Shown here piece after piece: positions 58,913-60,615 of a DNA stretch of 60,615 nucleotides. Source of the stretch: Prevotella sp. (GTDB lineage: Bacteria; Bacteroidota; Bacteroidia; Bacteroidales; Bacteroidaceae); NCBI GenBank assembly GCA_017847725.1, contig JAGAXW010000017.1, forward strand, positions 1 through 60,615, written 5' to 3'. Within the stretch, counting starts at the first letter, position 1, and the number at the start of each line of letters is the position of its first letter. Under the pieces are notes generated by a model. It had not been told where the DNA came from. It ran no database searches and saw only the letters and a list, made by a program, of their open reading frames with translations. A program made the position numbers and the translations under genes.

Positions 58913-59018
58913 ATGTACGATTGCCTGATTGTAGGCGCAGGCTTGTTCGGAGCAACTCTTGCCTGACGTGTCTGTCAGGTAGAACGCTCGTCTTTCGTCA
59001 TTGACATCCCTCAAACGG
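58913..59018 (+). pseudogene. remnant of glf (UDP-galactopyranose mutase), N-terminus only
   Basis: The ATG at 58913 begins MYDCLIVGAGLFGATLA, the FAD-binding start of UDP-galactopyranose mutase, then hits TGA at codon 18. In the same frame the sequence continues RVCQVERSSFVID, still resembling the end of the first beta-alpha-beta unit. Similarity fades by about 59000, where the convergent DUF5672 gene ends. So a nonsense mutation and loss of over 90 percent of the gene have left a fossil. It sits directly after glycosyltransferase genes that include a galactofuranosyltransferase-like domain. Confidence 0.85.
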
Positions 59019-59837
59019 TTACTGCTCAAGAACCATCTTGTCCGACCAAAAAGTATCGAAGTCAAATTTACGCCAAGCATGGCATCCAAATGGCAACTGT
59101 CCTTTGGTAACATTATTATATAGAAAGCAAGGTGAACGTTCAAAGGAAAAGAATGCCGCTTCTTCCGGTACTGGTACACGTAGTTCATATTTTGTGCCAT
59201 GCAGAACGACACAGAAGAACTCATCTTCCCAATAGCCTCGTTTCCTGATATGCCGTAAGCTATTTGTTCCTATCCATGGGCCACAACAGCGAACCAAACA
59301 ACGTAACAAATCCTTCAACGAGCGATATTCATCGCGGAAAACCTGCCTACAACTTTTAACCCTCGTATAACCTCCCAAACTCGTCAGCTGACGGAAGCAG
59401 GCTATCCTGCGCAACGAAAAGCCACCATTTCCGACACGCCATAGCTGATGACCACTTTCATAGCTCTTATAATCTTCAAACCATGGAGCCCCTACGTAGT
59501 CATAGCCTTTCTGGCACCATGCCACCAACTGGTCGCTGAAGACCCAGGCATCCAACTGATATAGTAGCATATAGTCATAGTCAGCTAACGCATCATAGAA
59601 GTCACATCCTGTCATCAGTCTGTTGTAGCCGTCAATACCATCAAAATAGTTTGTGTCAAAACGTAATTCGTTGTACCTGCTACCAAGCACCTGTCGATAT
59701 GCTGTTGTATCCATCCCTTGTGGACATACCAGAAAAGTATCATAGTGTCCCAGTATGGTTACACACTGTCTCAATGAACTTTTTTCGTCGGCTGTCATAA
59801 CAGGTTTGTAGACAGGAATGACTATGGCTATATGCAT
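59019..59837 (-). CDS. DUF5672-family protein, putative glycosyltransferase
   Basis: A 272-residue protein with IAIVIPVYKP near the start and the block YDYMLLYQLDAWVF followed by WCQKGYDYVGAPWFEDY, which defines the DUF5672 family found in bacterial and fungal glycan loci. It probably has a glycosyltransferase A fold, but activity is unknown. It is A/T-richer than the upstream glycan genes and its 3' end replaces the missing part of glf, suggesting it arrived by recombination. Promoter box TATTTTTG at 59873-59880. Confidence 0.78.
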   Translation of the reverse strand: MHIAIVIPVYKPVMTADEKSSLRQCVTILGHYDTFLVCPQGMDTTAYRQVLGSRYNELRFDTNYFDGIDGYNRLMTGCDFYDALADYDYMLLYQLDAWVFSDQLVAWCQKGYDYVGAPWFEDYKSYESGHQLWRVGNGGFSLRRIACFRQLTSLGGYTRVKSCRQVFRDEYRSLKDLLRCLVRCCGPWIGTNSLRHIRKRGYWEDEFFCVVLHGTKYELRVPVPEEAAFFSFERSPCFLYNNVTKGQLPFGCHAWRKFDFDTFWSDKMVLEQ

Positions 59838-59872
59838 GGTTATGTTTCTCCGGATTTCTACAATTATCTGTG

Positions 59873-59880
59873 CAAAAATA
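59873..59880 (-). promoter_or_regulatory. -7 promoter box for the DUF5672 gene
   Basis: TATTTTTG followed by CACA on the minus strand, 35 nt before the ATG at 59837. Confidence 0.6.
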
Positions 59881-60074
59881 CAACTTTTTTCGGCTATCTA
59901 CAACTTTTACAGGAGTTTTTTTCGTACCCCTGCAGCCTTTAGTGCTCCTTAGGTGTTCCTCCGCTTACACACCTTATCGGTAATTTGCACCTTTATTTGA
60001 GTCCGAACATAGAAAAATACGGTAAAATGATCATTTATCAGCCTGTGACCAATGGGCACACAGAAAATTCACTT

Positions 60075-60475
60075 TGACATTTTCGCAAAAAAAATGGCCA
60101 AAGCCTACACTAATAGAGTTAACACCTTGTTTTACAATCAATTAGACCGTGTAGGCTTTCTTAAAACCCTACACTAAGCCTACACAAGCCTACACTGCGA
60201 GAAAAAGGAGCGGAAAAAGGATTTCCCCGACGTGGAAATTTAATTTCCCGGTAATGGAAATACGATTTCCATAAGGCGGAAATACGATTTCCAAGTCATG
60301 TAAATTTGTTTTCCACGCTGTGGAAATCCTGACTCCCGTCGTGTGTAGGCTTGTGTAGGGTTAGTGTAGGGTTAGTGTAGGCTTTGGGAAAAGCCTACAC
60401 GGGTTAAACGATTATATTTCAGGTTGTTAACTTGTTTAGTGTAGGCTTTGGCCATTTTTTCCCCGAAAAATGTCA
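60075..60475. repeat. about 400-bp nested inverted-repeat element
   Basis: The outer arms match in inverse orientation: TGACATTTT...AATGGCCAAAGCCTACACTAA (60075-60112) against TTAGTGTAGGCTTTGGCCATT...AAAATGTCA (60436-60475), continuing into GTTAAC on both sides. Inner arms are runs of GTGTAGG units: on the right GTGTAGGCTT, GTGTAGGGTTA twice, GTGTAGGCTTT (60342-60386); on the left the complementary series (60150-60196) with one unit fewer. The core 60212-60336 is a palindrome array described separately. Confidence 0.85.
60212..60336. repeat. array of six 15-bp palindromes with exact 22-bp period
   Basis: Units start at 60212, 60234, 60256, 60278, 60300 and 60322. They read GGAAAAAGGATTTCC, GGAAATTTAATTTCC, GGAAATACGATTTCC (twice), GTAAATTTGTTTTCC and GGAAATCCTGACTCC; the last is decayed. 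The 7-bp spacers differ: CCGACGT, CGGTAAT, ATAAGGC, AAGTCAT, ACGCTGT. Each good unit is a 6-bp inverted repeat around a 3-bp centre. Confidence 0.9.
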
Positions 60476-60481
60476 ATGTAG

Positions 60482-60615
60482 TGTACTGAATAAGTTGACA
60501 AAAATTGAGTTCAACTTATGGGAAGAAATGTAAAGAAATCGAAAGAAGAAAGTTTAGAGATTCTTCGTGAGTATCTGACCACCTATCAGTCTAAACGTTC
60601 CATATGCCGAAAATA
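60482..60615 (+). mobile_element. left end of an insertion sequence (IS3-like), cut by the window edge
   Basis: TGTACTGAATAAGTTGACA at 60482-60500 looks like a terminal repeat beginning with TG. Just inside, AAGTTGA (60492-60498) and TCAACTT (60511-60517) form a hairpin directly before the transposase ATG, a common feature that limits outside transcription. The other end is outside the window, so family and target duplication cannot be checked. Confidence 0.6.
60518..60615 (+). CDS. transposase N-terminal fragment (partial)
   Basis: The ATG at 60518 opens a frame that runs off the window: it begins MGRNVKKSKEESLEILREYL and continues TTYQSKRSICRK. The charged start and helix-turn-helix-like pattern resemble OrfA of IS3-type elements. 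Only 32 codons are visible, so the family is tentative. Confidence 0.6.
   Translation, partial: MGRNVKKSKEESLEILREYLTTYQSKRSICRK

Follow-up and report, generated by a model that had tools for sequence, protein, structure and literature searches.

The window, i.e. the whole stretch of 60,615 nucleotides of Prevotella sp. DNA analysed here, carries close to its right end a MITE-like inverted-repeat element of around 410 bp (60070..60476, delimited by comparing its ends with those of other copies in the same genome), which is located upstream of a DUF5672 gene, about 230 bp from its start. No ORF of at least 60 aa overlaps 60070-60476, and the core of the element is an array of palindromes. Direct reading of 60212-60336 confirmed what an earlier note on this DNA had described, i.e. 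six palindromic 15-mers at an exact 22-bp step, with unit starts at 60212, 60234, 60256, 60278, 60300 and 60322. The consensus proposed there, GGAAAT-N3-ATTTCC, is exact in three of the six units, namely units 2, 3 and 4 (60234..60248, 60256..60270 and 60278..60292; direct reading and pattern match), while units 1, 5 and 6 (60212..60226, 60300..60314 and 60322..60336; direct reading and alignment of the copies) are degenerate, the three degenerate units being GGAAAAAGGATTTCC, GTAAATTTGTTTTCC and GGAAATCCTGACTCC. Likewise, the five 7-bp spacers (in order CCGACGT, CGGTAAT, ATAAGGC, AAGTCAT and ACGCTGT) are unrelated within the window as had been stated, but across the family described below the spacers share the consensus ACGCCGT (commonest letters of 35 spacers, the fifth letter being weak with C in 14/35). 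Therefore, GGAAA and TTTCC half-sites follow each other at alternating distances of 10 and 12 bp, which would correspond to about one half-site per helical turn.

A sequence-agnostic scan for at least three dyads at an exact period, covering periods 14-60, returned for the whole window one array of period 22 with five phased dyads, and at most two arrays for each of the 46 other periods. The two-unit pattern GGAAA-N5-TTTCC-N7-GGAAA-N5-TTTCC, which is its own reverse complement, was found at 18 places in the own genome and its reversed-order control at none. Since the whole-window scan holds a single period-22 array and the backwards pattern is absent from the own genome, the window array is not a product of chance.

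The array is bordered by two inverted-repeat arms of 111 nt each (left, 60080..60190, plus strand; right, 60359..60469, minus strand), which are 78 % complementary to each other. Blocks of 10-11-bp repeats containing TGTAGG stand on both sides of the palindromes, the left one on the minus strand (60165..60195) and the right one on the plus strand (60343..60384; direct reading and inverted-repeat search), together forming an inverted-repeat pair with 97 % complementarity. The left terminal inverted repeat, CACTTTGACATTTTC (60070..60084, plus strand), has similar counterparts in other copies; the right one, read directly as GAAAAATGTCAA (60465..60476, minus strand), is truncated where another sequence starts, at the point where the copies on contigs C38 and C54 run on with AAGTGAATTTTC. 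The sequence at this cut right end, 60477-60615, is perhaps an insertion sequence and contains an ORF start (60518; MGRNVKKSKEESLEILREYL...) followed by the end of the contig; 60479-60615 had no plasmid match and the 32-aa start of the ORF no Pfam match. When 59000-60615 was compared with Rfam, no family reached its gathering score, the best three (up to E 5) having 20.8, 13.2 and 13.2 bits against gathering scores of 119, 45 and 37.

The element belongs to a dispersed family in its own genome (G000; 2.39 Mb in 56 contigs, 80.6 % complete). Seven copies carry the array, i.e. the window copy (C21) and those on C24, C29, C33, C36, C38 and C54, and all seven have six units at an exact 22-bp pitch, with pairwise identities of 70-87 % among the copies. 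Their common anatomy consists of inverted-repeat ends, an arm with the ~11-bp TGTAGG repeat, six dyads and a mirror arm, and no gene lies between the arms in any of the seven. In addition, a short copy of ~190 bp without array is present on C17, similar ends occur in most copies and a solo end remains as a relic on C6. As expected of a MITE, the element is thus short (~410 bp), non-coding, bounded by inverted arms and ends, and present in multiple copies (seven with array, one short and one solo end). A recent tandem duplication existing only here, the counter-case named in the earlier note, does not agree with seven diverged copies of a common layout.

Judged from mechanically called ORFs, the copies sit between genes or at gene ends. 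Six of the eight (C29, C33, C36, C38, C54 and C17) are at the end of a long ORF or up to 96 bp beyond it, the distances being 36 bp (C29), 3 bp (C33), 96 bp (C36), 25 bp (C38) and 10 bp (C17); on C54, the copy and the 3' end of a Stealth-domain ORF share ~39 bp, which looks as it would after an insertion. Short ORFs touch the far side of two copies (C36 at 8 bp, C38 with a 33-bp overlap), and the C24 copy lies 172 bp before an ORF. No target-site duplication was evident in the flanks, which were inspected by eye and in which the exact ends are uncertain, and no clean empty site was found; for the thioesterase beside the C29 copy, used as an empty-site test, synteny was lost in G008, its best match outside the own genome. 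Each of the eight CTYTGACATTTTY sites in G000 belongs to an element end or to the solo relic, and no transposase was seen with these ends in this assembly (80.6 % complete). Concerted evolution of the arms was considered and set aside as too weak, the mean match of 0.795 within copies versus 0.747 between copies being due to three of the seven copies.

The genus search for the array pattern that the earlier note had proposed was run on 398 genomes including the own one, a sample of a larger group. Among the 397 others, the pattern was found in one (G354), where it is a different repeat, and the backwards control pattern was also found in one (G288). A BLAST search of 60 genomes with the C33 copy returned the own genome plus G018 at E 3.5e-5, the latter match being a 34-base stretch of ~11-bp tandem repeats. 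Whole-element blastn against plasmids and phages gave nothing at E 1e-5, and the array pattern had no match in a viral collection. Three stretches with AAGCCTACAC repeats were found on contigs of this collection, i.e. L152 and L153, in which the repeats stand in another context, and L154, which has inverted TGTAGG-type arms. So far, the window family appears to be known from one genome only.

Clustered TTCCA-N5-TGGAA palindromes were also observed, at least 412 of them in at least 102 loci (of L047-L151), mostly in MAGs of Kiritimatiellae, Verrucomicrobia and Lentisphaerae. Among the matches listed, neighbours lie 22 bp apart, 129 of 131 being the searched pairs themselves, and outside the searched pairs the distance is 30-31 bp in 144 of 169 pairs of up to 90 bp. 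These are apparently a separate palindrome family with two- and three-turn spacing, intergenic where inspected.

Within the genus, 44 of 217 genomes, own included, contain three TGTAGG spaced 10-12 bp apart; some of these triplets form inverted pairs, while others look coding or are single (40 places retrieved, 37 inspected). Different palindromes are found at 22 bp between inverted arms, i.e. AAAACT-N3-AGTTTT at L234, L235 and L249 (three copies in G363), AAAAGCATTGCTTTT at L185 (G014), AAAGCATnGCTTT in G015 and GTTAC/GTAAC dyads in G450. TTCCCA-N3-TGGGAA at 22 bp is present at L129 and L302, the former being an uncultured Prevotella record with its array near repeated GTGCAGA motifs. The constancy of the 22 bp claimed in the earlier note holds in the window family, but some related elements have a 21-bp pitch (L231 from G450 and L237 from G403). 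In a further TGTAGG-armed type, 14 of 15 loci picked by eye contain a pair of TTCTCnnGAGAA-like palindromes at a distance of 65-66 bp; the 14 loci with this pair (palindromes AAATTCTCTAGAGAATTT-like) are L154, L223, L224, L228-L230, L233, L236, L238-L240, L245, L250 and L252.

In the sequence-agnostic scan, period 22 was found at 10 of 42 TGTAGG loci (mean of non-multiples of 11: 0.30), with a blind count of 8/40, as L185 and L187 were known as arrays beforehand, and at 2 of 20 random loci (mean of non-multiples of 11: 0.35). Six period-22 arrays lie between arms (L185, L187, L223, L234, L235 and L249, three of them from G363); at L227, L243, L251 and the flagged site of L248 the flagged array is not between arms, and between the arms of L248 there is a real GTTAC/GTAAC array of 22-bp pitch that the scan missed. 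A larger random control (40 loci, 534 kb) contained 14 period-22 arrays, nine of them from G108, and without G108 there were five arrays of period 22, eight of period 41 and seven of period 44. Therefore, period 22 is in clear excess among the selected loci and within G108, but not in random DNA of other genomes. The occurrence of different palindromes on the same spacing suggests that in this genus the spacing matters more than the sequence.

G108 harbours a high-copy family with 246 matches to a 29-base pattern at up to three mismatches, the backwards control giving 0. Its element measures ~190 bp (by eye, from the consensus of 30 loci) with units at 22 bp, and the window element differs from it in length and palindrome. 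Between the G108 copies (e.g. L381-L410), spacer order and orientation vary, as though individual units had undergone inversion or exchange, and on its contig C1, from ~410 to 1739 kb, the perfect-match copies are all on the plus strand among the 100 places listed.

The seven arrays of the window family align over 125 columns (21 pairs) free of gaps. Not a single indel event was counted in 2625 pairwise-aligned array bp versus 55 in 5794 arm bp, with the reservations that pairwise indel counts are not independent in related copies and that part of the arm indels are whole 11-bp repeats gained or lost; mismatches, in turn, amounted to 645 (24.6 %) in the array versus 1383 (23.9 %) in the arms. 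The array is hence indel-free at a level of substitution equal to that of the arms, and the palindromes of other genomes keep the pitch, in agreement with the earlier proposal that the spacing is selected and not just copied; it looks constrained rather than merely copied. Regarding base pairing, the alignment contains 252 unit-arm pair cells, of which 194 show the consensus, 58 a change on one side and none a change on both sides; in units 2-5 alone, there were 19 one-side and 0 both-side changes in 168 cells. In these seven copies, the half-sites are kept as sequence and not as base pairs.

Our best reading is a new family, MITE-like and with a dyad array that is unusual and constrained in its spacing, for which protein binding would be the best explanation. 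Put more specifically, we lean slightly towards a non-coding element that is MITE-like and dispersed, and whose palindromes would serve as protein-binding dyads in helical phase. The protein, either a dimer or one that oligomerises on DNA, would sit on the GGAAA/TTTCC half-sites, about once per turn and on one face of the helix, and with a protein seated on such phased half-sites, insertions and deletions would be selected against. The copies would spread by a transposition-like process with the enzyme supplied in trans, and the related elements of other species would carry other palindromes while keeping the pitch.

Alternatively, the array may be selected as a structure, i.e. in RNA or single-stranded DNA as hairpins or as a single long hairpin or cruciform, serving for example as 3' stabiliser, terminator or transposition intermediate, which we regard as rather improbable. 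The array can fold: the RNA of 60205-60345 is predicted to form a nested hairpin of -49.2 kcal/mol (z -4.76) in which unit 1 pairs with unit 6, and the element as a whole is one large inverted repeat, the arms of which match best within some copies (C33 0.92, C54 0.93, C38 0.83 versus a mean of 0.75 between copies). The position of six of the eight copies just past a stop codon would also fit a role at the 3' end of an RNA. Compensatory change, however, is missing from the hairpins, as no cell is changed on both sides in either the local or the spacer-centred ones, and long-range pairing shows nine both-side changes versus 6.2 (sd 1.9) in shuffles; moreover, hairpins would not require an exact 22-bp pitch. 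Because changes in the units are never compensatory, there is little support for base-paired hairpins, and dyads bound by protein are the better fit. Of the two options raised in the earlier note, the hairpins were thus not borne out as the target of selection, even if folding of the array is possible, and the phased array of dimer-binding sites is preferred.

A doubtful proposal concerns the arms, which may serve a VapE-like AAA+ protein as sites of replication or transposition, the window element then being a gene-less derivative of an inverted-repeat VapE element. In G331, a VapE-like gene (429 aa, PF05272 at 9e-38) has TGTAGG arms on both sides with an inverted match of 43 bp at 95 %, and 98 bp of its left arm recur at 85 % in a gene-less element of G331; in G104, matches of 57-103 bp at 77-88 % link the VapE arms to gene-less elements of that genome. 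At E<=1e-4, 11/66 VapE loci have inverted repeats on their flanks versus 8/327 mismatched pairs, a count in which one place stands twice, L243 is included for its arms and five further loci have too short a flank; repeats of at least 60 bp are found at nine of these 11 loci versus 7/327 mismatched pairs. Nine of the 11 proteins have 401-430 aa, four of these nine showing VapE-like plus DUF3874 domains when scanned (one DUF3874 match below cut-off), and by eye the VapE arms have a similar layout with different short repeats. Such repeats are, however, absent from 55 of the 66 VapE loci and from the only VapE gene found in G000 (C28). The window arm matches the TGTAGG VapE arms over 28-35 bp only; for three further VapE arms the match is 7 bp long or absent, and the window element has no VapE gene between its arms, 0/7 copies having a gene there. 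Nor are the arrays clearly enriched beside VapE, since intergenic period-22 arrays number five in 28.9 kb beside VapE, nine in 76.5 kb of random DNA and one in 26.9 kb elsewhere in the same windows.

Such an enrichment had been indicated by a first test, in which period 22 was found at 13/69 VapE loci (one place counted twice; mean of non-multiples of 11: 1.35). The array was beside the gene in 11 of the 13, an adjacency that is partly built in because five of the 13 windows are short, and inverted repeats were present at 6/6 loci, a count based on too strict a motif and on six loci only. L282 and L339 represent one and the same place. A larger control removed this enrichment, and dropping G108 from the control would favour it, but post hoc. 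As a lead, the VapE-like genes with inverted repeats of similar layout hint at a possible mover of such elements. Among the papers listed for VapE with Bacteroidetes mobile elements or DUF4248, with most subscription journals outside the literature searched, no description of inverted-repeat VapE elements was found.

Several palindromes were observed around VapE genes. The same TGCGACAGCCGTCGCA-type palindrome stands at 22 bp beside VapE genes in two genomes (L259 2030-2081, on G000:C28, and L301 2416-2467), and at L277 and L285, also beside VapE genes, GGTGACA/TGTCACC takes the place that TGTAGG has elsewhere and adjoins 22-bp arrays (by eye). Just outside VapE inverted repeats, two CTGTCAC...TGACAG palindromes lie 22 bp apart in two genomes (L339 4136-4158 and L313 4145-4167).

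Unlikelier still is a passive minisatellite, i.e. a 22-bp unit multiplied in tandem within a MITE and left to drift without function, as, even though Bacteroidales are known to have MITEs that contain minisatellites (BrickBuilt with 23 nt; PMC4596501, available part), the number of units is six in 7/7 copies, the arrays are indel-free at ~25 % divergence, different palindromes recur at the same pitch and the repeat number of BrickBuilt, according to the same part of that source, varies from 1 to 22.8.

Going beyond the preferred reading of protein-bound dyads, one may speculate, with low confidence, that a genus-wide class of elements keeps an 11/22-bp lattice of DNA sites, the site sequence being replaced between lineages. 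Here, 11 bp refers to the direct repeats in the inverted arms and 22 bp to the alternating half-sites of the dyad array. An oligomerising protein would load onto this lattice, possibly one of the VapE-like AAA+ proteins encoded between such arms in some genomes, and would drive the element type without a classical transposase, and the window element would be a gene-less derivative. If true, keeping the pitch while the palindrome turns over would mean that the geometry of the DNA is read, and each lineage would be expected to have its own reader. Poorly explained intergenic repeats of a major gut and oral genus would then be tied to one testable binding mechanism, which might also account for the spread of gene-less elements without evident transposase.

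Several known systems share single traits with the window element. Iteron origins, found in plasmids and in SaPI-type satellites, contain short direct repeats about one helical turn apart, as do the arms of the window element; unlike iteron origins, the latter has no replication gene and the half-sites of its array alternate in orientation. CRISPR arrays consist of near-identical repeats with unique spacers of ~26 bp or more, and were rejected as the spacers of the window array have 7 bp and its units are degenerate. With REP/BIME elements, the REPs being units of 20-40 bp (PMC3733652, available part), the window family shares dispersed extragenic palindromes, but six units at a fixed pitch in a ~410-bp element set it apart by description.

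The statement of the earlier note that no named element has this layout stands in so far as no description of a 22-bp palindrome array was found among the papers listed in the literature searched on Prevotella MITEs and on intergenic or palindromic repeats, most subscription journals lying outside it; on the other hand, the array sits in a MITE-like element, and PINSR, going by the available part of its description (PMC4755523), may be another carrier. The BrickBuilt MITE of Porphyromonas gingivalis, as described in the available part of PMC4596501, is likewise non-coding, dispersed and intergenic, with terminal inverted repeats and an internal tandem array (23 nt). In contrast to the window element with its six dyads, fixed pitch and other ends, its repeat AGAYCATARTATCCTCTCRTRTG has no spacers and a variable number (1-22.8), and its ends are IS5-like. 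Membership of BrickBuilt was therefore rejected by direct reading, as unit and ends of the window element differ from the 23-nt AGAYCATARTATCCTCTCRTRTG and the GAGACC-type ends. PINSR is a 188-bp intergenic non-coding repeat of P. intermedia and relatives, with 177 and 184 copies, for which the authors report no terminal inverted repeats (PMC4755523, available part). The available part of that text names no 22-bp palindrome array for PINSR, 'palindrom' appearing there only for CRISPR. By description, the G108 family may be PINSR or a relative: both are high-copy, intergenic, non-coding and from the same genus, with 188 versus ~190 bp. Compared with PINSR as described in that part of the source, the window element is longer and has inverted arms and other palindromes.
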